Source: Epilithonimonas arachidiradicis
GTDB taxonomy: Bacteria > Bacteroidota > Bacteroidia > Flavobacteriales > Weeksellaceae
Assembly: GCF_003610695.1 (NCBI RefSeq)
Contig: NZ_RAQH01000010.1
Coordinates: 62,001 to 126,000 of the forward strand
DNA length: 64,000 bases
Reading direction: 5' to 3'
This document shows, one piece after another, positions 13,632 through 60,606 of the stretch (positions are counted from its first letter, which is position 1; the number at the start of each line of letters is the position of its first letter). Made by a program: the position numbers and the translations under genes. Below the pieces are notes generated by a model, which ran no database searches, was not told the DNA's origin, and saw nothing but the letters and a program-made list of their open reading frames with translations.

Positions 13632-13761
13632 ATGGTTCAGGTCTGGCCGCAATAGCGATAGAAACGGTTATCCTTTTGTCTTGTTTTGCAAAACAAGACA
13701 AAAGATAATAGTGGATAGCGCGACCCGAGCTGTGGCAAATGCCTGGGCGAGGGGATTGCCC
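13632..13761 (-). repeat. Structured dispersed repeat, copy A
   Basis: Read on the minus strand it contains GCGCTATCCACTATTATC, a central perfect 32-bp palindrome (CTTTTGTCTTGTTTTG 13673-13688 and its complement 13689-13704), then GGATAACCGTTTCTATCG. The flanks match the other four copies; the stem sequence does not. It follows the M28 peptidase stop (13788) in the same orientation. Confidence 0.8.
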
Positions 13762-13787
13762 CAATATTTATAATTGCTGAATGATAA

Positions 13788-14951
13788 TTAATCTACAATC
13801 AATTTCTTGGTAATCTGCTGATCTTCCACTTTGAATGTTCCTAAATAAATCCCTTTCGGAATTGTAGAAATGTTAATCCTGGTCTGATTGTCTGTTTTGC
13901 TGAGGATTTTACCTTCCAAATCTGTAATGGTAAAGCTGAAACGTTGGGTTTTGCTGTTTAGAAATTCCAATTGCAGATAATCCTTCGCCGGATTCGGATA
14001 GAATCTGAAGCTCATTGCGATTTCTTTGGGCGTGCACACATCCAAAGTCTGACCTGCAACCGCAAAATGCTGAACTGCTCCTGTTGTAGCTTTTGCTATG
14101 TTGTAGATATAAACAGGATCCAGATTGACGTATTTATCATTAGCGGTATGGGCGTAAGGCGTTTCATTATACTCAAATAAGCCGGTGATGATTTCTCCGT
14201 TAGCCTGGAAAGGCATATAATCTGAAGCATAAGCGTAACTCAGATTGGTTTTCAGCGGCGAATACAAAGTCACACAATTCATCAATTGTTGTGTAAAAGT
14301 ATTGGAAGCCGAATTGTTGGAACTAGGACTGTTAGATTCGTCTCTCTCGCAGGTGATGGTATCATTGGTTTTTCCTTTCACTCCGCCAACTTCATCGATG
14401 TTAAGAACCAACCGGATGCTCATTTTCGGACTTGTAGCATTCACAACACTTGAAACATAATGAGCGGAACCTAGCAAACCTTGCTCCTCACCGGAAAAAT
14501 TGATGAACTTGATAGAATAATCCGTTGGAACATTTTTTAGAAGTCTGGCAACTTCCAGGATTACAGAAACACCACTTCCGTTGTCATTGGTTCCGGTTCC
14601 GGTAATTGTATCATAATGGCCGCAGACAATAACGTAAGTGTTGGGATACTTGGTTCCTTGTTTTGTAACGATGATATTAGATGTTGATTGTCCGTTGTAA
14701 GTGAAAGTGTCTTTTGTGATTTCAGCATCGGTGTAACCAAAAGAAATATATTTGTTTCTGAGCCAGGTATATGCATTATTGTTGGCTGCAGAACCTGTGG
14801 TTTTCACACCCAAGCTTTCAAATTCCTGCAGATAAGTATTGATATTGGTTTGGGAAACCTGATTACTGATATCGGCGTAAGCCTGATTGAATGTTTGAGA
14901 ATTTGCTAAAAATCCAAGTAAAAACAAACCAAATAGAAGACGTTTTTTCAT
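13788..14951 (-). CDS. Secreted M28 family metallopeptidase with T9SS sorting domain
   Basis: 387 residues. A signal peptide (to ~18, ANS/QTF) targets the protein to the periplasm. The M28 zinc-aminopeptidase domain shows HYDT (His112), Asp123 in TNDNGSGVSVILEVARLL as bridging ligand, catalytic Glu155 with Glu156 in SGEEQGLLGS, an Asp in SDYMPFQANG and a final His in TPYAHTANDKY. The C-terminal ~75 residues (FRFYPNPAKDYLQLEF... GIYLGTFKVEDQQITKKLIVD) form a type A Por-secretion sorting domain, so the enzyme is exported by the type IX system. Likely role: extracellular peptide hydrolysis. Confidence 0.92.
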   Translation of the reverse strand: MKKRLLFGLFLLGFLANSQTFNQAYADISNQVSQTNINTYLQEFESLGVKTTGSAANNNAYTWLRNKYISFGYTDAEITKDTFTYNGQSTSNIIVTKQGTKYPNTYVIVCGHYDTITGTGTNDNGSGVSVILEVARLLKNVPTDYSIKFINFSGEEQGLLGSAHYVSSVVNATSPKMSIRLVLNIDEVGGVKGKTNDTITCERDESNSPSSNNSASNTFTQQLMNCVTLYSPLKTNLSYAYASDYMPFQANGEIITGLFEYNETPYAHTANDKYVNLDPVYIYNIAKATTGAVQHFAVAGQTLDVCTPKEIAMSFRFYPNPAKDYLQLEFLNSKTQRFSFTITDLEGKILSKTDNQTRINISTIPKGIYLGTFKVEDQQITKKLIVD

Positions 14952-14968
14952 TACGTAATAATAATTGA

Positions 14969-14976
14969 CAAATATA
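14969..14976 (-). promoter_or_regulatory. Putative -7 box of the M28 peptidase gene
   Basis: TATATTTG on the minus strand fits TAnnTTTG and lies 18 nt before the start codon. No clear -33 box is seen. Confidence 0.35.
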
Positions 14977-15014
14977 AAATAAAAAGGAGAAGACTTATAA
15001 AAATCTTCTCCTTT
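14977..15014 (-). terminator. Intrinsic terminator of the LEA-like gene
   Basis: AAAGGAGAAGA (14983-14993) and TCTTCTCCTTT (15004-15014) form an 11-bp stem with a 10-nt loop, followed by T-rich sequence on the minus strand. Confidence 0.8.
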
Positions 15015-15044
15015 CGTTGTGAAAAACTATTACTAACTTAAAAA

Positions 15045-15383
15045 CTAATTGGTTGCTTTTCTTACTTCTGCTTTCACATCTTCTGCAGCATCTTTGGTTT
15101 TTTCCCATGCATCAGAAGCAGTGTCTTTGGTGGTTTCCCACGCTTTATCGGCAAAATCCTTGGTATCTTCCCACGCATCGGAAAGATTTGATTTTAGATT
15201 ATCGAAGAAACCTTCTCTCGTCGGCTCTTCATTCTTTCTTTTTTGTTCATCAATATAATTCCGCGCTCTGTCTGCATATTCATTCACTTTGCTTTTAGCT
15301 GTGTCGGCTGCATTTTCTAAAGAATTTTCAGTTTTGTTAACAGCTCTTTCTGCATCATTGTATTTTTCGTCGTGCGTACTCAT
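15045..15383 (-). CDS. LEA/YtxH-like stress protein with 11-residue repeats
   Basis: 112 residues from the ATG at 15383 (MSTHDEKYND); an upstream in-frame ATG at 15434 would add a non-conserved 17-residue tail. The chain is hydrophilic, helical and without a signal peptide. The C-terminal half has 11-residue repeats of the form DAWEDTKDFADKAWETTKDT, which resemble late-embryogenesis-abundant and YtxH-type proteins linked to desiccation or osmotic stress in other bacteria. Single gene with its own terminator. The functional link is inference. Confidence 0.75.
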   Translation of the reverse strand: MSTHDEKYNDAERAVNKTENSLENAADTAKSKVNEYADRARNYIDEQKRKNEEPTREGFFDNLKSNLSDAWEDTKDFADKAWETTKDTASDAWEKTKDAAEDVKAEVRKATN

Positions 15384-15527
15384 AATATTTTGTTTTTGGG
15401 TTAATATTGAAAAATTTGATTTGATGCTAATCAATTATTCAATTAGAATGCCGCAAAGTCTTAATGAACGTTAATCTTTTGTTTCGAATTTATAATGTTT
15501 ACTAAATTGACATCAAAATTAAAAGTA

Positions 15528-16085
15528 ATGGAAAAAATCAGATGTGCGTGGTGCGGAACCGACGAGTTATACCAAAAATATCACGATGAAGAATGGGGAA
15601 GATTGGTGACGGATGATGCTACAATGTTTGAGTTTTTGATTCTTGAGAGTTTCCAAGCTGGATTGAGCTGGATTACGATTCTGAGAAAAAGAGAAACATT
15701 CAGGAAAGCATTTGATAACTTCAATTATAAGAAGATTGCGAAATACGGAGAAGATAAAATCGAAGAATTAATGCAAGACTCAGGAATCGTTCGAAATCGA
15801 TTGAAGATTAATGCGGCCATTTCCAATGCTCAAAAATTTATGGAACTTCAGAAAGAATTTGGAAATTTTTATGATTACATCTCAACATTCACAGGTGGAA
15901 ACCGAATCGTAAATACATGGAAGGTTCACACAGAAGCACCCGCAACGACAGAATTGTCTGATGCAATCAGCAAGGATTTAAAGAAAAGAGGGTTTAAATT
16001 TCTGGGTTCAACGGTTATATATTCTCATCTTCAGGCAACAGGAATTGTAGATGACCACATAGAACGTTGTTTTGTGAGAAATTAA
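15528..16085 (+). CDS. tag: DNA-3-methyladenine glycosylase I
   Basis: 185 residues from the ATG at 15528 (MEKIRCAWCGTDELYQKYHD). The in-frame ATG at 15495 adds 11 residues absent from the family. Tag removes 3-methyladenine from DNA in base-excision repair. Visible features are the N-terminal zinc-site Cys (RCAWC) and YHDEEWG, the LESFQAGLSWITILRKRE core that holds the base pocket Glu, and the C-terminal zinc ligands in VDDHIERCF. Monocistronic; it converges on the nucleoside phosphorylase gene. Confidence 0.95.
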   Translation: MEKIRCAWCGTDELYQKYHDEEWGRLVTDDATMFEFLILESFQAGLSWITILRKRETFRKAFDNFNYKKIAKYGEDKIEELMQDSGIVRNRLKINAAISNAQKFMELQKEFGNFYDYISTFTGGNRIVNTWKVHTEAPATTELSDAISKDLKKRGFKFLGSTVIYSHLQATGIVDDHIERCFVRN

Positions 16086-16114
16086 GTTTGAGGCTTTGAG
16101 ACTGGGAGAGTTTT

Positions 16115-16160
16115 AGTGTCAGAGAAAGATTGATTTTCATTTCATAAACTCTCTGACACT
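16115..16160. terminator. Hairpin between convergent genes
   Basis: AGTGTCAGAGA (16115-16125) and TCTCTGACACT (16150-16160) form an 11-bp stem with a 24-nt loop, midway between the converging tag and phosphorylase genes. No strong T run, so termination in either direction is only likely. Confidence 0.5.
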
Positions 16161-16177
16161 CCAACTCACAAACTATC

Positions 16178-17032
16178 TTACTTAATAATTCTGTCAAGTA
16201 CCCATTCTATCATCATTTTCTCAGAAGCGTGATGGTCGCTTGCAAATTCGCCACGTCTTCTGTTGGCGATAACGCAGTTCACAGTGATTGCTTTATGACC
16301 TAGTAGTTTTGATAACGCATAAATTGCCGAAGTTTCCATTTCAAAGTTGGAAACACCGAGGTCATTCAATGTTTCAAGGAATTGGTCATCCAAAGCTTTC
16401 AATCTCAACTGGCGGCCTTGTGGTGCATAGAATCCAGGGAAAGTCGCTGTGTTGCCTTTATATTTAGCATCCGCATAATAATCTGCAATATCTTCGGCAT
16501 AATTGGAGAAATATAACATTGGCTTGATTCTCTCGTAAGGGAATTTTTCCAGGAAATTCTTACTGAATTCATTTTCAAAATTATAATCCTGATAAAAATG
16601 CATAAGTCCGTCCAGACCCACTACGTTTTCCGTTACCAGCATATTATTAACTTCGATATCAGGGTTCACACTTCCGCAAGTTCCCATACGGAAAAGCTCC
16701 AGCGACTTATGCTCTTTTTTGAATTCTTTCTCTTTCAAATCGATGTTGACCAAAGCATCCAATTCGTTCATCACGATATCAATGTTTTCTGTCCCGATTC
16801 CCGTTGACATTACCGTGATTCTCTCGCCACGCAAAGTTCCTGTATGCGTATAGAATTCTCTTTTGTTCTTTTTAATTTCGATAGTGTCGAAGAATTTAGA
16901 AACTTTCGGAACTCTGTCAGGATCGCCTACAAGAAGTACTTTGTCTGCAAGGTCTTCCGGAAGAAGGTTAAGGTGGTAAACACTTCCGTCGTCATTTAGA
17001 ACCAATTCAGAAGCTGCTAGTTTGTTAATCAT
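16178..17032 (-). CDS. Nucleoside phosphorylase (uridine phosphorylase-like)
   Basis: 284 residues, PNP/UDP family 1. It cleaves a nucleoside with phosphate to the base and (deoxy)ribose-1-phosphate in the cytoplasm. Phosphate-binding GDPDRVPKVS is near residue 37, MSTGIGTENIDIVMNEL near 75, GTCGSVNPDIEV near 117, and the ribose-binding NFEMETSAIYALSKLLGH near 230. The combination is closer to uridine phosphorylase than to hexameric PNP, but the substrate is not certain. No linked pathway genes. Confidence 0.88.
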   Translation of the reverse strand: MINKLAASELVLNDDGSVYHLNLLPEDLADKVLLVGDPDRVPKVSKFFDTIEIKKNKREFYTHTGTLRGERITVMSTGIGTENIDIVMNELDALVNIDLKEKEFKKEHKSLELFRMGTCGSVNPDIEVNNMLVTENVVGLDGLMHFYQDYNFENEFSKNFLEKFPYERIKPMLYFSNYAEDIADYYADAKYKGNTATFPGFYAPQGRQLRLKALDDQFLETLNDLGVSNFEMETSAIYALSKLLGHKAITVNCVIANRRRGEFASDHHASEKMMIEWVLDRIIK

Positions 17033-17151
17033 ATTATTTATATTATAATTTTAAATTTTAGATTTTAAATTAAAGATTACAATTTCTGAGTGTTTGGTTA
17101 AGTGCAAACATTTATCATTTAAAATTTATAATCTATAATTCATCATTTTGT

Positions 17152-17475
17152 TTATCCTCCTACACGTTTGGTTTTGTAACCAAGGTCTTTCAGGATGTTC
17201 ATTATTTTGTCACGGTTGTCGCCTTGGATGATGATGATGCCGTCTTTTTCCGAGCCACCAATTCCAAGTGTTGTTTTGATTTTTTTCGAAATCTCTTTCA
17301 ATCCTTCATCATCGCCTTCCCAACCTTCTATCAAAGTTACCGGTTTTCCGTTCCGGCCTTTCTTTTCGAATTTGCACACCAAAGGTTCTTTCTGTTTGAA
17401 CACTTCTTTCGGCATTTCAAAATCCTGCTCTTCGTGGTCAGGGAAAAGGTTTTTCAGTTGGTCTCTTAAGTCCAT
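17152..17475 (-). CDS. SUI1/eIF1-like translation factor (YciH family)
   Basis: 107 residues, cytoplasmic. The SUI1 core runs from ~33 (LVCKFEKKGRNGKPVTLIEG) through LKEISKKIKTTLGIGGSEKD to IIIIQGDNRDKIMNILKDLGYKTKRVGG. Bacterial homologs such as YciH resemble eukaryotic eIF1 and may affect initiation fidelity (known of the family). Single gene. The 119 bp between it and the phosphorylase are AT-rich, with no obvious signal. Confidence 0.9.
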   Translation of the reverse strand: MDLRDQLKNLFPDHEEQDFEMPKEVFKQKEPLVCKFEKKGRNGKPVTLIEGWEGDDEGLKEISKKIKTTLGIGGSEKDGIIIIQGDNRDKIMNILKDLGYKTKRVGG

Positions 17476-17567
17476 TTTAATTTTTTAAAAAAGGGTCTTA
17501 AAGTTAATCATATTTATCAATCTGCAAAAAATAAGTTGAGAAATTCTACCAATGCTTTTCCATTTCG

Positions 17568-17575
17568 TAAATTTG
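17568..17575 (+). promoter_or_regulatory. Putative -7 box of gpmI
   Basis: TAAATTTG matches TAnnTTTG and lies 22 nt before the ATG. The -33 box is not evident. Confidence 0.4.
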
Positions 17576-17597
17576 TAATAACAAAACAAAATCAACA

Positions 17598-19124
17598 ATG
17601 TCAAAAAAAGCAATTCTTGCAATATTAGATGGCTGGGGAATCGGGCCAAATCCTGCTGTTTCAGCCATTGCTCAGGCCAAAACACCTTTTATGGATTATG
17701 CCTTGAAAACTTTTCCAAATACAACACTTGAAGCGAGCGGATTAGCGGTTGGATTGCCGGCCGGACAAATGGGGAACTCGGAAGTAGGACATATGAATTT
17801 GGGCGCTGGTCGTGTAGTTTACCAAAATCTTGTAAAACTGAATATGGCTGTGGAAAACGGAAGTCTTGGAAAAGAACCTGTGATCCAACAAGCCTTCGAA
17901 TATGCTAAAGCGAATAACAAAAAAGTACATTTCATTGGGTTGGTTTCTGATGGGGGTGTCCATTCCCATATCAACCATCTGAAAGGATTGCTGACGGCGG
18001 CTCACGAATTTGGATTTACGGACAAAGTTTATGTTCACGCTTTTACAGATGGCCGTGACTGTGATCCAAAATCAGGGAAAGGTTTTATAGAAGATTTATT
18101 AAATCATATGAAGTCCACTACAGGAAAACTGGCTTCTGTTATCGGCCGTTATTATGCGATGGACAGAGACAAACGTTGGGAACGTGTAAAGCTGGCCTAC
18201 GATCTTCTGGTAAATGGCGTTGGGAAAGAAACCAAGGATTTTGTTCAGGCGATTCAGGAGTCTTACAACGAAGATGTGACGGATGAATTCATTAAGCCTA
18301 TTGTCGGAGTTCAGAATCATTTCCCTATTGCGAAGATCGAAGACCACGATGTCGTCATTTGTTTCAATTTCCGTACAGACAGAGGTCGCGAGATTACAGA
18401 AGTACTTTCTCAGCAGGATTTCCCGGAATATGGAATGAAGAAGCTGGATCTATATTATGTGACTTTGACAAACTACGATAAGACATTCCAGAATGTAAGA
18501 GTTGTTTTTGATGAAAATGTTCTTCAGAAAACAATGGGCGAAGTTTTGGAAGCGTCTGGTAAATCTCAAATCAGAATTGCTGAAACGGAAAAATATCCGC
18601 ACGTTACATTCTTTTTCTCAGGTGGTCGCGAAGCAGAATTCGTTCAGGAAAGACGTTTGCTTTGTCCAAGCCCGAAAGATGTTCCGACCTACGATCTGAA
18701 ACCGGAAATGTCGGCTTACGACATCACGAATACCATTGTCCCGGAACTGGAGAAAGAATCTGCGGATTTCATCTGTCTTAACTTTGCCAACACAGATATG
18801 GTGGGTCACACCGGTGTTTTTTCGGCGGCGGTGAAAGCAGCAGAAGTGGTGGACGAATGCATCCAGAAAGTTGCAACGACGGCTTATGAGCACGGTTATG
18901 CGGTTTTCATTTTGGCAGATCACGGTAACTCTGATGTAATGATCAATCCGGACGGAAGCCCAAACACGCAGCATTCCACAAACCTTGTTCCTTTCATTGT
19001 GATGGATAAAGACCACACCTGGAATCTGACACCGGGAAAATTGGGCGATGTCGCACCAACCATTCTGAAAGTAATGGGTGTTGATATTCCCGAAGAAATG
19101 ACAGGAAATGTTTTGGCTAACTAA
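17598..19124 (+). CDS. gpmI: 2,3-bisphosphoglycerate-independent phosphoglycerate mutase
   Basis: 508 residues, the normal length. It interconverts 3- and 2-phosphoglycerate in glycolysis, using two Mn ions and a phosphoserine. Asp11 (AILDGWGIG) and Ser61 (GQMGNSEVGHMNLGAGR) are the N-terminal metal site and nucleophile. The inserted phosphotransferase domain carries SDGGVHSHINHL and AFTDGRDCDP. The C-terminal metal residues appear in NFANTDMVGHTG and ILADHGNSD, then NTQHSTNLVPF. Monocistronic with its own terminator. Confidence 0.97.
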   Translation: MSKKAILAILDGWGIGPNPAVSAIAQAKTPFMDYALKTFPNTTLEASGLAVGLPAGQMGNSEVGHMNLGAGRVVYQNLVKLNMAVENGSLGKEPVIQQAFEYAKANNKKVHFIGLVSDGGVHSHINHLKGLLTAAHEFGFTDKVYVHAFTDGRDCDPKSGKGFIEDLLNHMKSTTGKLASVIGRYYAMDRDKRWERVKLAYDLLVNGVGKETKDFVQAIQESYNEDVTDEFIKPIVGVQNHFPIAKIEDHDVVICFNFRTDRGREITEVLSQQDFPEYGMKKLDLYYVTLTNYDKTFQNVRVVFDENVLQKTMGEVLEASGKSQIRIAETEKYPHVTFFFSGGREAEFVQERRLLCPSPKDVPTYDLKPEMSAYDITNTIVPELEKESADFICLNFANTDMVGHTGVFSAAVKAAEVVDECIQKVATTAYEHGYAVFILADHGNSDVMINPDGSPNTQHSTNLVPFIVMDKDHTWNLTPGKLGDVAPTILKVMGVDIPEEMTGNVLAN

Positions 19125-19145
19125 AGCCTGATATAAATAAAATTG

Positions 19146-19172
19146 AAAGTCGGTTTTTTTACCGGCTTTTTT
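19146..19172 (+). terminator. Intrinsic terminator of gpmI
   Basis: AAAGTCGG (19146-19153) and CCGGCTTT (19162-19169), an 8-bp stem with one G-U pair, followed by a T run 22 nt past the stop. Confidence 0.75.
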
Positions 19173-19211
19173 AATTTTTGGTGTAAATTCGTTTATTAAT
19201 TCATAATAATT

Positions 19212-20678: not shown

Positions 20679-20824
20679 TAAGAGGTTTTTAATTTTAAGT
20701 TGTTGATAGTCAGATTTTTGATTTACAGTTTTTATTTTAAAAATCAAGGATTTCGAAAGTGTTGGCGTTGGATTTGACAAAATTCTAGTATAGTTTAGCA
20801 TCAAATAATATTTTGAAGATTAAA

Positions 20825-22204: not shown

Positions 22205-22232
22205 AATATTCAATTTTTTTAAAGTTTCAAAT

Positions 22233-22272
22233 CCTATTCAAGCGGTTTAAAATCTGCTGAATAGGTTTTTTT
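22233..22272 (+). terminator. Intrinsic terminator of the T9SS protein gene
   Basis: CCTATTC (22233-22239) and GAATAGG (22259-22265), extended by AGC/GCT across one bulge, followed by eight T residues. Confidence 0.7.
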
Positions 22273-22363
22273 TGATTTGGCTATACTTGGTACAAAATCA
22301 ACCAATTATGCAATGAATAATATTATTTTGTTGTACCTTTACGGTCTTAAATAATTTTTTTTG

Positions 22364-23341: not shown

Positions 23342-23350
23342 ATAATTATT

Positions 23351-23378
23351 AAATGCACCAATCGGTGCATTTTTTATA
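23351..23378 (+). terminator. Intrinsic terminator of the desaturase gene
   Basis: AAATGCACC (23351-23359) and GGTGCATTT (23364-23372), a 9-bp stem with a 4-nt loop and a T run, 10 nt after the stop. Confidence 0.85.
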
Positions 23379-23412
23379 TCAAAATATCCGAAATACACGT
23401 TTTAATATTTTG

Positions 23413-23420
23413 TATATTTG
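23413..23420 (+). promoter_or_regulatory. Putative -7 box of the HAD hydrolase gene
   Basis: TATATTTG matches TAnnTTTG, 23 nt before the ATG at 23444. No clear -33 box. Confidence 0.4.
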
Positions 23421-23443
23421 CAGACATTTTTACTCAAAACCAG

Positions 23444-23878: not shown

Positions 23879-23967
23879 GTCTCTTTGTAAAAAGTAAAAT
23901 GTAACAAGTACAAAGTATCGTATTAAAACATATTACACTTTTACATAATACATCAATGCAATTATAA

Positions 23968-24777: not shown

Positions 24778-24787
24778 TTTTTGAATT

Positions 24788-33752: not shown

Positions 33753-33838
33753 TTTTTAGGAGCTTAATCCCGCTATCCGCTATATCTTTTTCTTTTTTAG
33801 CAAAAAAAGAAAAAGGATGCCGCTACTATCGGGGCTAT
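33753..33838 (+). repeat. Structured dispersed repeat, copy B
   Basis: TTTTTAGGAGCTTAATCCCG begins the element and GCCGCTACTATCGGGGCTAT ends it. The central stem is CTTTTTCTTTTTT (33786-33798) with a 13-bp perfect complement (33803-33815). It begins directly after the AIM24 stop codon. Confidence 0.85.
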
Positions 33839-33843
33839 AAAAT

Positions 33844-33875
33844 AAAAACCTCAGAGAAATTTCTCTGAGGTTTTT
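33844..33875 (+). terminator. Bidirectional intrinsic terminator after AIM24 and repeat B
   Basis: AAAAACCTCAGAGAAA (33844-33859) and TTTCTCTGAGGTTTTT (33860-33875) are a perfect 16-bp inverted repeat with A and T runs at its ends. Confidence 0.85.
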
Positions 33876-39177: not shown

Positions 39178-39265
39178 TTTTTTAGGAGCTTTTTCCGGCT
39201 ATCCACTGTATCTTTTGTTCCGCTTTGCTCCACAAAAGGATGCCGTTTCTATCCGGGCTATGGGG
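39178..39265 (+). repeat. Structured dispersed repeat, copy C
   Basis: Starts TTTTTAGGAGCTTTTTCCGG; ends TGCCGTTTCTATCCGGGCTA. The central stem CTTTTGT (39212-39218)/ACAAAAG (39232-39238) encloses a 13-nt loop. It lies after the EmrB-like gene, in its orientation. Confidence 0.8.
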
Positions 39266-49998: not shown

Positions 49999-50017
49999 TT
50001 TAGATTACACTTACTTA

Positions 50018-50050: not shown

Positions 50051-50094
50051 ATTGCAGTTTACACATACTTTTTTTATATTGTAACCAATATATA

Positions 50095-50106: not shown

Positions 50107-50182
50107 TGGAATCGCTAATGTCTTATTGCTAAGTTGATTTGACAAAGGACAAACGAAACCATCGATCTTAAAATCTATTCAA

Positions 50183-52339: not shown

Positions 52340-52362
52340 AAAATTCCCTTCACTGAAGGAGA

Positions 52363-52396
52363 GATTTTCGAACCTGTTCGGAAATCGGGAGTTTTT
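52363..52396 (+). terminator. Putative terminator of the GH97 gene
   Basis: GATTTTCGAAC (52363-52373) and GTTCGGAAATC (52376-52386), an 11-bp stem with one G-U pair, followed by GGGAGTTTTT. It runs directly into repeat copy D. Confidence 0.6.
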
Positions 52397-52487
52397 CAGG
52401 AGCTTAATCCCGCTATCCGCTATTACTCCTCGTGCCAAAGCTTTTCCCAAGGCTTGCTGTGGGGTAACCGCTACTATCGGGGCTATG
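52392..52487 (+). repeat. Structured dispersed repeat, copy D
   Basis: Starts TTTTTCAGGAGCTTAATCCC; ends ACCGCTACTATCGGGGCTAT. The central stem is TTACTCC/GGGGTAA (one G-U pair), enclosing CTCGTGCC...GGCTTGCTGT. It follows the GH97 gene in its orientation. Confidence 0.85.
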
Positions 52488-52569
52488 GCTTTCAACTCCA
52501 AATAAACTTTGTCAAAGTTCAACCTTTGACAAAGTTTTTCTTAATTTTTTTTCTCAAAAATCCTACTAA

Positions 52570-53556
52570 ATGAATTGGATTTCCAGACTTTTCAACAAGC
52601 AAAATACATTTCTCTTCCTGTTGGTCGGGATGGTTATTTTAGCTAAAGTTTTCCCGTTTCAGGATTCCTATAATCAGTATTTCAATCTCACCGGCTTTAT
52701 AGATTGGGGCATTGCGGGAATTTTTCTGTTGTATGGACTGAAACTCAATCTCAAGGAAGTCATAAAAGATGTCTCCAACTGGAAACTGCATTTGCTGATT
52801 CAGTCGGGAACATTTATTATTTTTCCTTTGTTGGCGTTGATGTTTTATCCATTCTTGAAAGACACACCGTATTACAATATTTGGCTTTCGATTTTCTTTT
52901 TAGCGAGTTTGCCTTCTACGGTTTCATCATCTGTTGTAATGGTTTCCATTGCAAAAGGAAATGTCACATCAGCCATTTTCAATGCATCGATTTCCGGAAT
53001 TATCGGGATTGTAATGACGCCATTATGGATGAGTTTTTTCCTGACAGCAAATGGAGAATCTAGTAATCAATCCGAAATCATTCAGCAACTTTTGTTAAAA
53101 GTTTTATTGCCAATTATTTTAGGAATTTTACTCAATCCAATCTTCAAAAAATGGGTGATCAAATACTCCAATATTATTTCAGAATTTGACCGACTGATTA
53201 TTTTGTTGATTGTTTACGAAAGTTTCTCACACGCATTTATAGAAAATATTTTCGTTGCTGTTCCAGCTTTAGTATTTGTTGCTTTAGCTTTCAGTGTAAT
53301 ATTTTTGTTTTTTGCAACTTATTACATCCTGAAATTCATCGCCGAAAAACTGAATTTCAAACCCCAAGATGTCATCACAACAAACTTCTGTGGCTCCAAA
53401 AAATCCTTAGTTCACGGGAGTTTATTCCTTTTGGTTTTAGGAATTCCGGACGACCAAAAAGTGTTGTTTTTGTTACCGGTAATGATTTACCACAGTTTTC
53501 AATTATTCTACGTAAGTTGGTTAGCGAATAAAATTTCCAAAAGAACCAAAATTTAA
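52570..53556 (+). CDS. SBF-like (bile acid:sodium symporter family) membrane transporter
   Basis: 328 residues with nine or ten hydrophobic segments. The PF13593 SBF-like pattern is visible in WGIAGIFLLYGLKLNLKEV, LASLPSTVSSSVVMVSIAKG and NFCGSKKSLVHGSLFLLVLG. Members are putative Na+-coupled organic-anion transporters; the substrate is unknown. It is set between the two starch-degrading enzymes but has no obvious part in starch use, so its place may be accidental. ATG start, 230 nt after GH97 with repeat D in the gap. Confidence 0.85.
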   Translation: MNWISRLFNKQNTFLFLLVGMVILAKVFPFQDSYNQYFNLTGFIDWGIAGIFLLYGLKLNLKEVIKDVSNWKLHLLIQSGTFIIFPLLALMFYPFLKDTPYYNIWLSIFFLASLPSTVSSSVVMVSIAKGNVTSAIFNASISGIIGIVMTPLWMSFFLTANGESSNQSEIIQQLLLKVLLPIILGILLNPIFKKWVIKYSNIISEFDRLIILLIVYESFSHAFIENIFVAVPALVFVALAFSVIFLFFATYYILKFIAEKLNFKPQDVITTNFCGSKKSLVHGSLFLLVLGIPDDQKVLFLLPVMIYHSFQLFYVSWLANKISKRTKI

Positions 53557-53610
53557 TGTAACAATTTAAAAATCTAGCAGTTTAATAATTTTCAACAACT
53601 CAATATGTTA

Positions 53611-53690
53611 CTTTGATAAGTTTCACGCCTTTGCGAACTTTAAGATAAACATTAATCAAGAAATCTTCGTGGACTTTGTGTTCAAATTTC
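53611..53690 (+). repeat. CTTTGCGAACTT dispersed repeat, copy 2
   Basis: Starts CTTTGATAAGTTTCACGCCT, then TTGCGAACTTTAAG, and ends GGACTTTGTGTTCAAATTTC. It aligns with 36184-36262. Confidence 0.6.
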
Positions 53691-53734
53691 AGCTAAATTC
53701 ACTTGAATCTAAAAATAAATCTTAATTTTAAATA

Positions 53735-53745
53735 GACCTTAAAAA
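53735..53745 (+). promoter_or_regulatory. ACCTTAAAAA leader motif, GH13 gene
   Basis: GACCTTAAAAA ends 8 nt before the ATG at 53754; a partial second copy, AACCTT, directly precedes the start. Confidence 0.45.
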
Positions 53746-53753
53746 TTAACCTT

Positions 53754-55601
53754 ATGAAAAAAATATTAACCATTTCCGCCATCTCAATATCTGCAATTTT
53801 CTATTCTCAGGTTCAGAAAGTAGAACCAGCTTTTTGGTGGAGCGGAATGAAAAATACTGAACTACAATTGTTAGTTTACGGAAGAGACATCCAGAATCTT
53901 CAACCAGAATTCTCAACTGGAATCAAAATCAAAGAAGTCAAAAAAGTTGAAAACCCAAATTACCTTTTTGTAACTATCGACACCAACGGCGTTCAACCCG
54001 GAAAAACAAAATTGAATTTCAAAAACGGAAACAAAACCGTTAAAACCATCGATTACGAATTCAAGCAAAGACTACAAAACTCAGCAAACAGAGATTCTTA
54101 CACGTCTTCGGATGTAATGTATCTCATAATGCCGGACCGTTTTGCCAACGGAAATCCGAAAAACGACAATACGCCAGACACGGCTGAAAAAGCTGACCGA
54201 AGCAAAACTGGTGGTCGCCACGGTGGAGATATTGCCGGTATTGTAAAGAATCTGGATTACCTTCAGGAATTAGGCGTTACCACGATTTGGAATACACCTT
54301 TGTTGGAGGATAATGAACCTTCATATTCTTACCACGGCTACGCGCAAAGTGATTATTACAAAATCGACCCGCGCTACGGAACTAATGAAGATTATAAAAA
54401 TCTGGCGGACGAACTTCATAAAAGAAAAATGAAACTCGTGATGGATTATGTCACGAATCATTGGGGTTCGAAAAGTTGGATTATCAAAGATTTGCCTTCA
54501 AAAGATTGGATTCATTATTGGAACGGACAGGAAAATGGGTTCCAGAGAAGCAATTACAGAATGACAACACAGTTCGATAGCAACGCAGCCAAAGTAGACG
54601 AAGCAGCTTGTATGGATGGCTGGTTCGATACAACAATGCCGGATATGAATCAGAGCAATCCAATGGTTGTAACTTATATGGCTCAGAACGCAATCTGGTG
54701 GATTGAATATGCAGGTCTGGACGGGTTCCGTGTGGACACTTATTCTTACAACGATAAAAAAGGAATTGCAGATTGGACAAAAAGAATTACCGACGAATAT
54801 CCAAAATTCAATATTGTTGGCGAAGTCTGGATGCACGATCAGGCGCAGATGTCTTATTGGCAGAAGGATTCCAAAATTGCGGCGATAGAAGGTTACAATT
54901 CTTATTTGCCTTCTGTGATGGATTTTACGCTTCACGATGCTCTTGGTCAGGTTTTCCGCGAAGATGCTGGTTGGGATTCCGGAATGCAGAGAGTTTATGA
55001 TAATCTGGCGAACGATTTTCTTTATCCGGATATCAATAATCTTTTGGTTTTTGCTGAGAATCACGATACGAACAGATTTAATCAAATTTTTCCAAAAGTT
55101 GAAGATTACAAATTAGCAATGAGTTTGATTTTGACCATTCGTGGAATTCCGCAACTATATTACGGTTCCGAAATCGGAATGGCTGGCGACAAAAACAAAG
55201 GTGGTGACGGCGAGATCCGTAAAGATTTTCCAGGAGGTTGGGCTGGCGATGCGCACAATGCTTTCATAAAATCCGGAAGAACAGCTTCTCAAAACGAATA
55301 TTTTGATTACACCAAAAAACTTCTGAATTGGAGAAAAACAAACGAAGCGGTTCATACAGGGAAAACTTTGCATTATATCCCCAACAACAACGTTTACGTT
55401 TATTTCCGATATACGGATAACAAAAGGGTAATGGTCGTTATCAATAACAACAAGGAAAATCAAAACTTAGATTTGAAACGTTTTTCTGAAGGTCTGAAGA
55501 ATTTCACAAAAGGAAAAGATATTATTTCTGACAAAGAGTTTGATTTGAAAACAAATTTGTCTGTTCCTGCAAAATCTTCATTAATTTTAGAATTAAAATG
55601 A
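53754..55601 (+). CDS. GH13 alpha-amylase (neopullulanase/cyclomaltodextrinase type, SusA-like)
   Basis: 615 residues with signal peptide MKKILTISAISISAIFYSQ. The N-terminal ~100 residues (EPAFWWSGMKNTELQLLVYG) match the cyclomaltodextrinase N-terminal domain. The barrel begins at VMYLIMPDRFANGNP. Conserved regions: DYVTNH (231-236), GFRVDTYSY with nucleophile Asp328, GEVW with acid/base Glu357, and FAENHDT with Asp438. The C-terminal domain ends LSVPAKSSLILELK. It cuts alpha-1,4 bonds in maltodextrins or pullulan, probably in the periplasm, feeding GH97 and the MFS transporter. Confidence 0.94.
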   Translation: MKKILTISAISISAIFYSQVQKVEPAFWWSGMKNTELQLLVYGRDIQNLQPEFSTGIKIKEVKKVENPNYLFVTIDTNGVQPGKTKLNFKNGNKTVKTIDYEFKQRLQNSANRDSYTSSDVMYLIMPDRFANGNPKNDNTPDTAEKADRSKTGGRHGGDIAGIVKNLDYLQELGVTTIWNTPLLEDNEPSYSYHGYAQSDYYKIDPRYGTNEDYKNLADELHKRKMKLVMDYVTNHWGSKSWIIKDLPSKDWIHYWNGQENGFQRSNYRMTTQFDSNAAKVDEAACMDGWFDTTMPDMNQSNPMVVTYMAQNAIWWIEYAGLDGFRVDTYSYNDKKGIADWTKRITDEYPKFNIVGEVWMHDQAQMSYWQKDSKIAAIEGYNSYLPSVMDFTLHDALGQVFREDAGWDSGMQRVYDNLANDFLYPDINNLLVFAENHDTNRFNQIFPKVEDYKLAMSLILTIRGIPQLYYGSEIGMAGDKNKGGDGEIRKDFPGGWAGDAHNAFIKSGRTASQNEYFDYTKKLLNWRKTNEAVHTGKTLHYIPNNNVYVYFRYTDNKRVMVVINNNKENQNLDLKRFSEGLKNFTKGKDIISDKEFDLKTNLSVPAKSSLILELK

Positions 55602-55672
55602 TAGAATTCAAAACAAGAAAATGTAATTGAGTTCCCGAACAAATTTTAAAATCGTTTAATTATATTTTGAAT

Positions 55673-56145
55673 ATGAAAAATCAATTGCAATTGGCCAATC
55701 GTTTTCGGGAAGTTATCCTGAATGGAACCTGGATTGCGAACACCAATTTCAAAGACCAATTAGATAATTTAGATTATAAAATTGCTGCCACTAAGGTAGT
55801 AAACCTTAATACGATTGCTGTTCTTGCACAACATATTCATTATTATATCAAAGGAATTAAAAATGTTTTGCTTGGTGGCGATTTGGAAATAAGGGATAAA
55901 TTCAGTTTCGATTTTCCACCAATAGAATCTCAACAACAATGGGATAATTTCCTTACTGGATTTTGGAGAGATTCCGAAGGATTTGCAAAACTGATAGAAA
56001 TCTGCCGGAAGAAAAACTCAATACTGATTTTATTGACGAAAAATACGGAACATACATCAGAAATCTTGACGGAATGATAGAGCATAGTTATTATCACCTC
56101 GGTCAGATCGTGTTAATCAAAAAAATTATAGAAACTCAAAAATAA
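55673..56145 (+). pseudogene. DinB family protein gene, frameshifted
   Basis: Frame 1 from the ATG at 55673 encodes MKNQLQLANRFREVILNGTW through DSEGFAKLIE, then runs into an unrelated tail that ends at 56077. The second frame resumes with LPEEKLNTDFIDEKYGTYIR, then NLDGMIEHSYYHLGQIVLIKK, the typical DinB/DUF1572 C-terminus with its metal-binding His, up to 56145. One additional A in the run at 55998-56000 (GAAATCTG to GAAAATCTG) would restore a single ~157-residue protein. Either a real loss of function or a sequencing/assembly error. A further 8 nt lead to the next gene. Confidence 0.8.
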
Positions 56146-56152
56146 ACTCGAA

Positions 56153-56668
56153 ATGAAAAGAATAATTTCCATTTTTATACTATCTTTTTTGATATTTTCG
56201 GTTCCTGTTTCTGCACAGAAAAAGGGCTTTTACGAGAATGTTCAGAAAAAAAATATCAACAAATTACTGGACGATTTCAATACGTTTGCAGCTAACGCAG
56301 ATTTCGAAAAATATTTTGATTGCTTCGCAGAAGAATCAACGTTTATCGGAACGGATGCAACAGAAGTTTGGAACAAGAAAGAATTCAAGGATTGGGCAAA
56401 ACCATTTTTCGATAAGAAAACAACCTGGAATTTCAAATCCTTAAAACGAAATATCTATTTCAGCAAAGACGGAAATTATGCTTGGTTCGATGAGATTCTC
56501 GATACGCAGATGAAAATCTGCAGAGGTTCTGGTGTACTTGAAAAAATCAGCGGAAAATGGAAGGTGAAACAATACGTTCTTTCCGCAACCATCCCGAATG
56601 AAGTGATAGATGAAGTCACCAAAATCAAAACGCCGATCGAGGATGCTTTGATTCAGAAATTAAAATAA
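56153..56668 (+). CDS. Exported SnoaL-like/NTF2-fold protein
   Basis: 171 residues. Signal peptide MKRIISIFILSFLIFSVPVSA. The mature part has the SnoaL_3/DUF4440 pattern: NKLLDDFNTFAANADFEKYF then DCFAEESTFIGTDATEVWNK, and the strand pair AWFDEILDT and GVLEKISGKWKVKQYVLS. NTF2 folds bind small ligands; no catalytic residues can be assigned here. It follows the DinB remnant by 7 nt and precedes the MFS gene by 22 nt. Confidence 0.82.
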   Translation: MKRIISIFILSFLIFSVPVSAQKKGFYENVQKKNINKLLDDFNTFAANADFEKYFDCFAEESTFIGTDATEVWNKKEFKDWAKPFFDKKTTWNFKSLKRNIYFSKDGNYAWFDEILDTQMKICRGSGVLEKISGKWKVKQYVLSATIPNEVIDEVTKIKTPIEDALIQKLK

Positions 56669-56675
56669 TATATAA

Positions 56676-56686
56676 AACCTTAAAAA
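56676..56686 (+). promoter_or_regulatory. ACCTTAAAAA leader motif, MFS gene
   Basis: AACCTTAAAAA lies at 56676-56686, 4 nt before the ATG at 56691, directly after the SnoaL stop. Confidence 0.4.
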
Positions 56687-56690
56687 TAAA

Positions 56691-58070
56691 ATGAAAAAAA
56701 AAATAAAACCGAATCTTTCCATCGCTCAGATTATCAATATGAGTATGGGATTTTTGGGAATCCAAATGGCGTTTGGCTTGCAGAACGGAAATGCCAGCAG
56801 AATTTTAGCAAATCTTGGCGCTGATGTTCACGAATTGTCTTGGTTTTGGTTGGTGGCGCCTGTTACGGGATTAATCGTTCAGCCGATTATCGGACACATG
56901 GGAGACAACACCTGGAGTCCGTTGGGAAGAAGAAAACCCTATTTTTTGATTGGTGCAGTTTTATGTGCCATCGGATTGGTTCTCCTTCCAAACGCTGCTT
57001 CCGTGACTAATCTTATCGCAGCTAATGTATTATTGCTTGCAGTAATTTTCTTAGCAATGATGGATGCGTCTATCAATGTAGCAATGGAACCTTTCCGAGC
57101 ACTGGTCGGGGATATGCTTCCAAAACATCAGGGAACAATCGGGTTTTCCGTTCAAACGATTTTGATCGGAATTGGTGCGGTAATCGGTTCTTACCTTCCG
57201 GATTGGCTTACCAAACTAGGAATCTCGAATGTTGCTCTGGAAGGGTTTGTGGCAGATAACGTGATTTTCTCTTTTTATGTTGGGGCAGGATTTTTAATTC
57301 TGACTATTCTTTACACGATTCTGACTACGAAAGAATATTCTCCGGAAGAATTTGCATCTTTCGAAGACGGAAAAGAAGTTGCAGAACCTTCCAAATTCTC
57401 AGACATTTTCAAGGATTTTGCGAACATTCCTGCCCAAATGAAAAGATTAGGAATTGTTCAGTTCTTTTCTTGGTTTGCTTTATTCACAATGTGGGTTTTC
57501 ACAACAAGTGCTTTGGCAACGCATCATTTTGGGTTGTCTCCGGAAGATACACATTCGGAAGCTTTTAATAATGCCGGAGATTTAACAGGAAAATTATTCG
57601 GGATGTATAACCTTTGGGCTATTCCGTTTGCATTTTTGCTAACACCGATTGCCAAATTCTTAGGCAAAAAACAAACGCACGCTTTGGCTTTATTATCAGG
57701 AGGTTTGGGATTGATTTCGATGTATTTTATTAAGGACACATCGTTGCTTTGGATTTCTATGATAGGATTGGGATTTGCTTGGGCAAGTATTTTAGCAATG
57801 CCTTATGCGATGTTGATTGAAGTGATTCCGCAAAGAAAAATGGGTGTTTATATGGGAATTTTTAATTTCTTTATCGTCATTCCTCAAATCATTAACGGAA
57901 TTTTCGGTGGACCGATTGTCTCCAATATTTTTGGAAAAATGGCGATTGATTACGTGGTGGTCGGCGGCATTTGTATGCTAATTGGTGCAGTCGTTACAAT
58001 GATTTTCATCAAATCAGATGACGAAACACCAAAAGAAATTGAAGAAGAAATCCAGCAGGTTCATTTTTAA
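56691..58070 (+). CDS. MFS sugar transporter (maltose/SLC45-like)
   Basis: 459 residues, twelve membrane segments. The start SIAQIINMSMGFLGIQMAFG then LQNGNASRILANLG, and the loop GDNTWSPLGRRKPYFLIGAV, match the inner-membrane maltose/sucrose permeases (GPH-like, SLC45-like) found in Bacteroidota starch loci. It probably brings maltose or short dextrins into the cytoplasm, completing the SusC-GH13-GH97 route. The stop overlaps the start of the 74-residue gene (TAATG). Confidence 0.9.
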   Translation: MKKKIKPNLSIAQIINMSMGFLGIQMAFGLQNGNASRILANLGADVHELSWFWLVAPVTGLIVQPIIGHMGDNTWSPLGRRKPYFLIGAVLCAIGLVLLPNAASVTNLIAANVLLLAVIFLAMMDASINVAMEPFRALVGDMLPKHQGTIGFSVQTILIGIGAVIGSYLPDWLTKLGISNVALEGFVADNVIFSFYVGAGFLILTILYTILTTKEYSPEEFASFEDGKEVAEPSKFSDIFKDFANIPAQMKRLGIVQFFSWFALFTMWVFTTSALATHHFGLSPEDTHSEAFNNAGDLTGKLFGMYNLWAIPFAFLLTPIAKFLGKKQTHALALLSGGLGLISMYFIKDTSLLWISMIGLGFAWASILAMPYAMLIEVIPQRKMGVYMGIFNFFIVIPQIINGIFGGPIVSNIFGKMAIDYVVVGGICMLIGAVVTMIFIKSDDETPKEIEEEIQQVHF

Positions 58071-58294
58071 TGAATTATAAAAAGATTCTTTTATTAAGTA
58101 TTTTGCTTATAATTCTTTCGGTAATAATGTTTTTAACCGGAATAGGATTGTTTGCATACAAAGGAAATCAAGTGGACCCATTAATTGTTAAATTAGGAGA
58201 AATTAGTTTTGTCTTTTGGATACCAACTTTAGTTTTAGGAATTTTATTATTCTTCATTTCAATAGTATTATTGGGACGAAATAAATCAAAATAG
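58070..58294 (+). CDS. Small two-pass membrane protein
   Basis: 74 residues with hydrophobic segments at ~5-27 (ILLLSILLIILSVIMFLTGI) and ~47-68 (FVFWIPTLVLGILLFFISIV). Its ATG overlaps the MFS stop codon, so it is translationally coupled to the transporter. It may be an accessory subunit or unrelated; no family recognised. A strong terminator follows. Confidence 0.65.
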   Translation: MNYKKILLLSILLIILSVIMFLTGIGLFAYKGNQVDPLIVKLGEISFVFWIPTLVLGILLFFISIVLLGRNKSK

Positions 58295-58304
58295 TATAAC
58301 TATT

Positions 58305-58330
58305 AAATCCACCAAATCGGTGGATTTTTC
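58305..58330 (+). terminator. Intrinsic terminator of the MFS operon
   Basis: AAATCCACC (58305-58313) and GGTGGATTT (58319-58327), a perfect 9-bp stem with a 5-nt loop and T residues behind. Confidence 0.85.
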
Positions 58331-58416
58331 GTTCTTATCCTACGTCAATGTGTAAGAGTTTTCAAAGCTGGAAATTTGTATCAACAAAAAAGCCTAACAA
58401 TTAAAATCAATTTATA

Positions 58417-59136
58417 ATGAAAACAGTATATCACAAATCAGACAGCAGAGGTTATGCTAACCATGGTTGGTTAAAAAGTCATCACACTTTTAGCTTTGCC
58501 AACTATCACAATCCGGAAAGAACACATTTTGGTGTTCTCAGAGTGTTGAATGACGATTTTGTAGAAGGTGGAATGGGATTCGGGAGACATCCGCACCGCG
58601 ATATGGAAATCATCTCGATTCCTTTGGAAGGCGATTTGCGACACGGCGATAATATGGGCAATTCCGGAATCATCAAAAAAGGCGATATCCAGGTGATGTC
58701 TGCAGGAACCGGAATTATGCACAGCGAAGAAAACGCCACCGAACAACCTGTCAAATTCTTACAAATCTGGGTGATCCCCAACAAAACTGATGTTACACCA
58801 AGATACGATCAAATCAACATCGAGGAACAATCTGTACAGAATGATTTTCAGCAGATTCTTTCTCCTAACGCAGATGACGCCGGTGTCTGGATTCATCAGG
58901 ATGCGTGGTTCAATTTGGCAAGATTTGACAAAGGCTTTTCTAAGGAATACAACATCCATAAATCAGGAAATGGCGTGTATGTATTTGTCATCAAAGGAAA
59001 AGCAAAAATCGGTGACCAAATCCTCGATGAAAGAGACGGTTTGGGAATATCGGAGACAGAAAGTTTTGCGTTAGAAGCTGAAGAAAATTCCGAAATACTA
59101 CTAATGGAAGTTCCAATGCAGTTACCACAATCTTAA
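58417..59136 (+). CDS. Pirin family protein (YhhW-like)
   Basis: 239 residues, bicupin. The metal site of the N-terminal cupin is complete: His58 and His60 in GRHPHRDMEI, His102 and Glu104 in IMHSEEN, matching the quercetin-2,3-dioxygenase-like YhhW. Pirins bind iron; the physiological role in bacteria is unclear. Cytoplasmic, single gene. Confidence 0.92.
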   Translation: MKTVYHKSDSRGYANHGWLKSHHTFSFANYHNPERTHFGVLRVLNDDFVEGGMGFGRHPHRDMEIISIPLEGDLRHGDNMGNSGIIKKGDIQVMSAGTGIMHSEENATEQPVKFLQIWVIPNKTDVTPRYDQINIEEQSVQNDFQQILSPNADDAGVWIHQDAWFNLARFDKGFSKEYNIHKSGNGVYVFVIKGKAKIGDQILDERDGLGISETESFALEAEENSEILLMEVPMQLPQS

Positions 59137-59200
59137 TTTTTTAATAAATTTTTAAGAAAAATACATCAGACTCGGTATAAGATTTGTCCTCAAAAAATCT

Positions 59201-59208
59201 TAAATTTG
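59201..59208 (+). promoter_or_regulatory. Putative -7 box of purD
   Basis: TAAATTTG matches TAnnTTTG, 31 nt before the ATG. A TTTG at 59183-59186 is only 14 nt away, short for a -33 box. Confidence 0.4.
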
Positions 59209-59239
59209 GCACTTTAAAAAGTTAAACTGAAAACATAAT

Positions 59240-60478
59240 ATGAGATTACTTATTGTAGGAAACGGTGGACGTGCTTCTGCCTTGGCTACCAAGCTAAGCG
59301 AGGACAACAGAATTACGAAGATGTACTTTGCACCTGGTAATGCCACTACCGAAAAACTGGGAGAAAATATCAACGAAACAGACATCATTGCATTGAGAGA
59401 TTTTGCGATCAAACACAAGGTAGATTTGACCATTGTTGGTCCGGAAGCACCTTTGGTAGAGGGGATAGTGGATGAGTTTAAAAAAGTTGACCTCAAGGTT
59501 TTCGGTCCTGCAAAAAAAGCAGCTTCATTGGAAGGTAGCAAGGCATTCTCAAAAAAGTTTATGAAAACTTACGGAATCAAAACGGCGCAATCCGTGACAT
59601 TTGATTCTTACGCAGAAGCTAAGGAATACTTGCAGAAGCAAAAATTTCCTATAGTCATCAAAGCGAGTGGATTAGCGGGTGGAAAAGGTGTGGTCATCGC
59701 CGAGAATCTTGAAGATGCAGAAGGAACGATCCACGATTTTATGATTAAAAGAATCTTTGGCGATGCCGGGATTCAGGTGATCATCGAAGAATTTTTGCAA
59801 GGTTTCGAAGCATCTATTATTGGTGTTTCCAATGGTGAAAAGATTTTCCCTTTCATTCCTGCAAAAGATTACAAAAAAGTCGGAAATGGTGACAAAGGCC
59901 CAAACACAGGTGGGATGGGTTCTGCAGCGCCAAGTCCGGAATTTACAGATGAGCATCAGAAAGATTTCGTAGAGCATATTATGAATCCAACCGTTGAAGG
60001 TCTTAAAAAAGAAGGTCTTAGCTTCAAAGGATTTATTTTCTTCGGATTAATGGTGACTAAGAACGGGACTTACTTGTTGGAATACAATATGAGACTGGGC
60101 GACCCGGAAACTCAGGTGCTTCTACCGTTGTTGGAAAATAACCTGGTAGATGTTATCGAGGATTGTCTTCACGGCAGAGAGTTGGAGCTGAAATTCAAAA
60201 ACAAAAAAGCGGTTTGTCTTGTAGTGTGTTCCGGAGGTTATCCTCAGAACCACGAGACAGGCTTCGAGATAACAGGTGCGGAAAAAGTGAAAAACAGTAC
60301 GCTGCTTTACGCCGGCGCAGATTACAGAGGCGACCGTGTGATTTCCACAGGCGGTAGAGTTCTGAATCTTGTAGCTTTGGGGGACACATTCGAGGAAGCA
60401 CGCAAAAAAGTGTACGAAGACGCAGTGCCTGTAGATTTTGACTACGGATTTTATAGAGACGATATTGCGAAATTCTAA
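59240..60478 (+). CDS. purD: Phosphoribosylamine--glycine ligase
   Basis: 412 residues, normal for PurD (GAR synthetase). It joins phosphoribosylamine and glycine with ATP in de novo purine synthesis. N-terminal MRLLIVGNGGRASALATKLS; ATP-grasp loop ASGLAGGKGVVIAENLEDAE; the signature YNMRLGDPETQVLLP carries Mg ligands, and PNTGGMGSAAPSPEF is typical. Stand-alone gene, not in a pur cluster, with a strong GNRA-loop terminator. guaA, another purine gene, lies 1.1 kb downstream. Confidence 0.96.
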   Translation: MRLLIVGNGGRASALATKLSEDNRITKMYFAPGNATTEKLGENINETDIIALRDFAIKHKVDLTIVGPEAPLVEGIVDEFKKVDLKVFGPAKKAASLEGSKAFSKKFMKTYGIKTAQSVTFDSYAEAKEYLQKQKFPIVIKASGLAGGKGVVIAENLEDAEGTIHDFMIKRIFGDAGIQVIIEEFLQGFEASIIGVSNGEKIFPFIPAKDYKKVGNGDKGPNTGGMGSAAPSPEFTDEHQKDFVEHIMNPTVEGLKKEGLSFKGFIFFGLMVTKNGTYLLEYNMRLGDPETQVLLPLLENNLVDVIEDCLHGRELELKFKNKKAVCLVVCSGGYPQNHETGFEITGAEKVKNSTLLYAGADYRGDRVISTGGRVLNLVALGDTFEEARKKVYEDAVPVDFDYGFYRDDIAKF

Positions 60479-60485
60479 AATATAC

Positions 60486-60519
60486 AGAGATGTTGGGCGA
60501 CCAATGTCTCTTTTTTTTT
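60486..60519 (+). terminator. Intrinsic terminator of purD with GCGA tetraloop
   Basis: AGAGATGTTGG (60486-60496), loop GCGA, CCAATGTCTCT (60501-60511): an 11-bp stem with two G-U pairs, followed by a T9 run that merges into repeat E. Confidence 0.85.
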
Positions 60520-60606
60520 AGGAGCTGATCCCGCTTTCCACTCATACTCCTCGCGCCGCCGCAATTGCCAACGCCTGCTGTGGGGTATCCGTTACAATCG
60601 GGGCTA
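60512..60606 (+). repeat. Structured dispersed repeat, copy E
   Basis: Starts TTTTTAGGAGCTGATCCCGC; ends TCCGTTACAATCGGGGCTAG. The central stem is ATACTCC (60544-60550)/GGGGTAT (60582-60588) with one G-U pair. It follows purD in its orientation. Confidence 0.85.

Follow-up and report, generated by a model that had tools for sequence, protein, structure and literature searches.

Flavo-1 repeats in an Epilithonimonas genome: a folded ladder under pairing constraint, with tips replaced as blocks at conserved sites

A stretch of 64,000 nt from Epilithonimonas arachidiradicis (contig NZ_RAQH01000010.1, positions 62,001 to 126,000; hereafter the window) contains five copies, A to E, of a repeat whose central stem differs in sequence from copy to copy and yet pairs. 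An earlier note had taken this preserved pairing as the signature of a folded, selected element, which raises the questions of what the element is, where the constraint lies, and how the central stems come to differ. The identity was clarified by a comparison with Rfam, as that note had proposed. A cmscan of window positions 13400-60800 showed that the five repeats are present where they had been described and that they are members of Flavo-1 (RF01705), a family that is already catalogued and whose role is unexplained. The scores of 38.8-80.0 bits argue against chance matches. Copies A, B, C and D scored above the Rfam gathering score of 42 bits, while E was slightly under it and was listed via the E-value threshold; all five matched model positions 1-76, that is, the full-length consensus fold. 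The strand used in the earlier note is the reverse complement of the Rfam strand, and in the Rfam sense A lies on the plus strand and B to E on the minus strand:

13641..13729, plus strand: copy A, 63.1 bits; deviating outer frame (GCGATAG..ATAGCGCGACCCGAG) and perfect 16-bp tip palindrome
33762..33840, minus strand: copy B, 80.0 bits, E 3.3e-16; frame arms 33815-33840 and 33762-33786, tip 33787-33814
39188..39263, minus strand: copy C, 62.2 bits; outer stem compensated, CCGG/CCGG
52402..52488, minus strand: copy D, 43.6 bits; tip type CCCC..GAGGAG on the minus strand
60523..60609, minus strand: copy E, 38.8 bits, E 7.3e-5, below the gathering score; tip type as in D

The central arms were found as claimed, with 16 perfectly paired bp in A, 13 bp in B, 7 bp in C, and TTACTCC/GGGGTAA and ATACTCC/GGGGTAT in D and E, each of the latter two including one G.T. 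The outer blocks that had been described as common to the five copies are less uniform: C and E carry variants of them, and A has neither AGGAGCT..CCCGCTATCC nor CTATCGGGGCTA, but the deviating frame given above.

The window holds a small part of the family. A covariance-model search of this genome yielded at least 91 Flavo-1 matches at E<=0.001, and 61 of the 91 listed exceeded the gathering cut-off; all genome counts given here are lower bounds. The 91 listed copies consist of two parts: a ladder forms the lower portion, and above it stands an apical stem-loop, the tip, whose sequence is free. The core of the ladder reads GAT-n-GNA on one arm and GGA-n-AGC on the opposite one, and it contains conserved mismatches between purines as well as compensating pairs. 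From the base upward, on the Rfam strand, an outer stem of 3-4 bp is followed by an A.G mismatch, two pairs, a 3x3 loop (GNA versus GGA), two further pairs, a second 3x3 loop, 3-5 pairs, in most copies a bulged C, and finally the tip, which usually starts with TTTT and ends with AAAA. The two subtypes proposed from the window understate this variety: subtypes do exist, but the copies comprise several frame types and many tips. The following frame types were distinguished:

Frame type TAGCCCCGAT..AGCGGGATTAAGCTCC: among the Flavo-1 copies of this genome
Frame type TAGCCCTGAT..AGCAGGTTCCCGGCTCC: also among the Flavo-1 copies of this genome
Frame type (GTAA/CAATA)GGGAT..AGCCCGACCCG: closely resembled by copy A
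Frame type GCAGCCCGACTTGAGCGG..GGAAGGCGGATTAAGCTGCC, the second frame: matched weakly by the Rfam model, or missed

The second frame occurred in 65 distinct versions in the fetched sequence, 35 of them in loci of this genome, and six loci that hold it (L321, L322, L324, L325, L328 and L329) had no Flavo-1 match at E<=0.01.

Selection on pairing was analyzed with the conserved bases alone as anchors, by which 50 of the 91 copies could be extracted (41 failed the anchor match). These contained 36 distinct arm pairs, in which four variable positions of the ladder were always paired (36 of 36) and a fifth was paired in all but one (35 of 36), compared with shuffle means of 0.45-0.80. At position n7-n5, AT, TA and GC pairs together accounted for all 36 cases, versus 45% in shuffles. 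When the genomes G022 and G004 were added, 61 distinct arm pairs were obtained, and the five positions paired in 61, 59, 61, 61 and 59 of them, in 38 different five-pair combinations (shuffle means 47-82%). The second frame held its three variable pairs in 17 of 17 distinct arms; an exchange of A.G for G.A within it is a mere hint (Fisher p 0.11). Toward the base, o2 was paired in just 0.67 and the outermost position o1 in 0.17 of the 36 arm pairs, like shuffles, and the outer stem therefore stops there in part of the copies.

The tips were found to pair with their own partners. For 67 unique tips from 71 of the 91 copies of this genome (75 of 86 G022 copies were also used), the mean number of unbroken pairs was 8.79 (maximum 12) with the own partner and 4.68 after swapping, and the best of 1000 shuffles reached 5.33; the run was a single unbroken pair in 7 of the 67 tips. 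Folding z-scores of the single copies A to E were -3.94, -2.03, -1.11, -0.15 and +0.68 on the Rfam strand, and -4.47, -1.83, -1.32, -0.98 and +0.38 on the strand of the earlier note, with unremarkable folding energies for C, D and E. Because single-copy folding energy is weak evidence, the case for the structure stands on covariation over many copies. Together, these findings show that the Flavo-1 structure is real and that the pairing constraint is located in the ladder. The selected fold postulated in the earlier note is thus borne out by covariation and by the self-pairing of tips, but its central stem does not vary mainly by compensatory point changes: between close relatives, tips are near-identical or replaced as blocks, and classical covariation is a property of the lower ladder. 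The Rfam strand was the more stable one in 77 of 91 copies with RNA parameters and in 85 of 91 with DNA parameters, and on this strand G.T exceeded A.C at pairing positions by 28 to 4, in a tally that excludes the C.A of the tip type of D and E.

How the tips change was revealed by comparison with relatives, of which G022 and G016 are 95% and 92% identical to this genome over site B. At the five window sites, flanks and arms were kept, and the tips of A, B, C and D were replaced in at least one relative. The tip of site A differed at the orthologous site in both, site D had another tip in G016, and the tip of site E was unchanged in both. The comparison with G022 was extended to the whole genome, where 53 of the 91 copies had both flanks at a fetched locus (13 had one flank and 25 had none). 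Tip identity in these 53 pairs was bimodal: 33 tips were near-identical (mean 0.94), and 20 fell below 0.75. Ten of the 20 exchanged tips were enclosed by arms that both had at least 0.75 identity; in the remaining pairs the frame had changed too, the alignment was poor, or, in one case, the aligned G022 segment contained no element. These results show that sites are conserved while their tips change mainly by block replacement, and that the new tip still pairs with itself.

Site B could be read in 14 genomes; in the other genus members, one of the flank genes was missing from the fetched loci or had no match. In all 14, the element stands behind the same gene, called AIM24-like after its Pfam match (AIM24). 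Named records closest to the protein of this gene belong to Flavobacteriaceae bacterium PS02293 (97% over the best segment) and to Epilithonimonas species. Four tip types were present, in 3, 8, 2 and 1 genomes, and three Chryseobacterium loci had no element at this site. A Fitch count by hand gave six tip changes on a single-gene tree in which several deep branches had support below 60. Among the CTCC tips of site B, a lower pair is compensated, G/C in G001 and G018 and A/T in six other genomes. When 80 loci were scanned loosely, L241-L248 were flagged, as was L286, which by eye is not Flavo-1. Elements that kept their tip had a mean identity of 0.956, versus 0.74 in 14 intergenic flank segments of 50 bp (11 of 14 comparisons), in what was a small and crude test.

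The source of the new tips was searched for with 17 of the 20 exchanged pairs, short tips and the one element-less locus being left out. Among the sampled Flavo-1 copies of two genomes, a near-identical copy was present elsewhere for 6 of 17 exchanged and for 9 of 30 unexchanged tips. One tip word was found at 11 places in the genome, namely in five listed Flavo-1 copies, in four second frames, and at two places without a visible frame; since one word recurs in frames of more than one kind, tips are modules that frames have in common. The open-licence PMC papers searched contained no account of tips being exchanged in Flavo-1.

Flavo-1 was present in all 22 same-genus genomes of the relatives sample, with 46 to at least 91 matches apiece, in 27 of the 39 genomes of this sample overall, and in 40 of the 148 genomes of the order sample, in agreement with the statement of the earlier note that similar elements are common in flavobacterial genomes. 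With crude calls of open reading frames (ORFs), 7 of the 91 listed copies overlapped an ORF of at least 80 aa, and most copies were intergenic. Relative to the Rfam strand, the neighboring genes were arranged ++ in 21 cases, -- in 37, convergently in 16 and divergently in 16, with one case undetermined; 37 of the 58 co-directional contexts were thus antisense to both neighbors (p 0.048). This spread agrees with a passage on the Flavobacterium psychrophilum transcriptome, according to which Flavo-1 matches occur indistinctly in sense and antisense and many lie outside of transcribed regions, while some 5' transcribed regions coincide with matches (PMC9723704). Flavo-1 has figured as a probable RNA with no function since 2010. 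The transcriptome of 2021 offered no clue to one, and passages of the literature assign none to Flavo-1, as the earlier note had stated. In the closed genome G022, 61 of 91 listed copies (106 were found) had the Rfam strand opposite the leading strand (p 0.0015), which was deduced from a coarse GC skew with breakpoints picked after the skew had been viewed; when the breakpoints were free, this bias was matched by 6 of 300 permutations in G022 and by 23 of 300 in G004. The replication-strand bias was left uninterpreted, because genes share it. Copies B and D had no match in plasmid and phage collections, where B may be hidden by the low-complexity filter.

Several structures next to or within Flavo-1 copies were observed in addition:

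33848..33871, plus strand: terminator-like hairpin ACCTCAGAGAAATTTCTCTGAGGT followed by a T run, just past copy B (from the sequence and an alignment over relatives)

Copy B has this hairpin on one side and the AIM24-like gene's stop codon on the other. Beside copy D, a sub-threshold match to FuFi-1 RNA (35 bits versus a cut-off of 59.6; window 52503-52630, minus strand) overlaps another terminator-like hairpin. The frame type of copy A continues into a second hairpin (CCCGAGC..GGCGAGGGGATTGCC) outside of the Rfam model, at window positions 13695-13761 as well as in L020 and L029. In L221 (about 5174-5290), in L225 (about 4093-4220) and in G016, a short palindrome, GACTTCGTCGAAC.., that is missing in this genome lies within the Flavo-1 right arm of G022 or G016; it is another repeat that was inserted into Flavo-1. 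At site B of G012 (L043), the AGGAGCT end of the element is partly duplicated, with about 40 extra bases ahead of the full element.

We give about even chances to the reading that Flavo-1 is, in this genome, a dispersed and mostly intergenic hairpin repeat, similar to repetitive extragenic palindromic (REP) elements, with a ladder that is recognized in its folded form and a tip that is exchangeable. Family membership, dispersal, pairing constraint, long-term conservation of sites and block replacement of tips are observations; a protein would recognize the ladder when it is folded from a single strand, and the tip would serve as a clamp of nearly irrelevant sequence. If the tip sequence hardly matters, recombination with other elements of this or other genomes could exchange it. 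Because copies lie in all orientations to genes, Flavo-1 would be neither a small RNA (sRNA) gene nor a cis-acting RNA. A bolder version, which we regard as a long shot, makes Flavo-1 a novel type of bipartite genetic element: the fixed frame, holding its place for as long as the genus exists, would be a docking site for exchangeable apical hairpins, and these would move between frames, even of different types, via a dedicated recombination activity that recognizes single-strand structure.

Several points weigh against the REP-like reading. No protein partner was identified. The copies of one family are related, and the shuffle controls therefore overstate significance and are not probabilities. 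Among the window copies just B and E fold better on the Rfam strand, while A, C and D as RNA fold slightly to clearly better on the other one, and the tip type of D and E (7 listed copies) has a fixed C.A on the Rfam strand and G.T on the opposite strand. Donors for just 6 of 17 exchanged tips mean that exchange within the genome was not demonstrated. Of the 38 copies without a clean pair, 21 were taken and 20 could be aligned to G022 (17 were outside this comparison): at 7 of these 20 sites no element was recognizable and at one it was degenerate, with the surrounding DNA altered too, and by eye none of the 20 was a clean insertion with target duplication.

A structured non-coding RNA would be in accord with the Rfam type 'Gene; sRNA', with Table 1 of Weinberg et al. 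2010 (PMC2864571), which lists RNA 'y' and cis-reg 'n', with covariation and G.T excess on the Rfam strand, and with the coincidence of some F. psychrophilum 5' transcribed regions with matches. However, at least 91 matches in one genome, in both orientations to genes, exchangeable tip sequences, and the sense/antisense indifference and many untranscribed matches in the F. psychrophilum passage (PMC9723704) make this explanation unlikely. The family might instead be the REP of a Y1 transposase (TnpA_REP/RAYT-like) that spreads it as folded single-stranded DNA. PF01797 was found in 33 of 40 Flavo-1 genomes versus 11 of 108 others in the order sample, G072, the sole same-family genome without Flavo-1, also lacks it, and a hairpin with conserved mismatches recalls the REP architecture described in PMC8266576. 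However, this genome has no PF01797 match at E<=1e-3, 7 of the 40 Flavo-1 genomes lack the domain, and just one of 20 fetched Y1 loci (11 genomes) contained Flavo-1, 1.8 kb off, while most had other short palindromes beside the gene by eye (none at L115). Also by eye, A, C or T precedes the TAG of TAGCCC-type copies, which hence lack a GTAG tag before the stem; the sequence is CAG or AATAG in other frame types. The co-occurrence may reflect shared ancestry. The direct linkage to Y1 transposases that the co-occurrence had suggested was rejected on the gene neighborhoods of the fetched loci, and we consider this origin quite improbable.

A role as 3' mRNA stabilizer or transcription terminator would explain why, of 53 copies whose right side faces a gene 3' end, 25 are within 25 bp of it, and why B has a stop codon on one side and a terminator-like hairpin on the other. 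Yet separate terminator-like hairpins exist beside B, D and, in relatives, C, divergent contexts (16 of 91) and co-directional ones of the opposite orientation (21) occur as well, neither end of B has a U run where one is required, and in B to E the T run precedes the stem, on the gene side; such a role is very unlikely. Hardly probable at all is that the tip differences merely reflect ordinary ectopic gene conversion among the copies of one genome, with an otherwise functionless element. The frame arms are indeed near-identical across copies and some tips recur, for example a T-rich palindrome in up to 10 other copies of this genome, but 11 of 17 exchanged tips had no near-identical copy in the sampled sets, and 38 compensated ladder combinations suggest selection.

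The Y1 loci yielded an observation on a different family. Matches to Acido-Lenti-1 (RF01687) at or below the cut-off adjoin genes for 150-aa Y1 transposases (L109 2224-2269; L113 2881-2926 and 2345-2389; L104 2840-2884), which suggests that some members of this 'RNA' family are REP-like hairpins belonging to such transposases. Covariance-model matches of miRNA families at TnpA loci were rejected as chance or palindromes.

If frames are docking sites, flavobacterial genomes would permanently possess a system by which hairpin tips are reshuffled at intergenic sites that stay conserved, and a dedicated tip exchange would be an unrecognized mode of genome variation. Tallies in which Flavo-1 figures as an abundant 'sRNA' family would have to be reinterpreted.

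In integron attC sites, the arms are conserved and include unpaired positions, and the terminal stem varies. Flavo-1 shares such arms and such a stem, but it occurs as single intergenic copies, the flanks of which stay constant when the tip changes; the window showed no cassette arrays, and an integron integrase was not searched for. With REP/REPIN elements and their TnpA_REP (RAYT) transposases, it has in common many intergenic copies, an imperfect hairpin, conserved mismatches and a strand-specific fold, according to PMC8266576 and PMC8049555 (see also PMC3116915, PMC2817692 and PMC3733652). It differs in its length of about 65-115 nt versus 20-40 bp for REP (PMC3733652), in having no GTAG tag, in that no Y1 gene was found in this genome, and in that the Y1 genes of other genomes are not flanked by Flavo-1 in the fetched loci. 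With the Flavo-1 RNA of RF01705 (Weinberg et al. 2010, PMC2864571), the repeats share the strand-specific ladder and the closing tip stem. Rfam files this family as an sRNA gene, whereas its behavior here is that of a dispersed repeat whose tips can be exchanged, and to the known family are added the constraint in the ladder, the exchange of tips as blocks at conserved sites, and a distribution like that of a DNA repeat.

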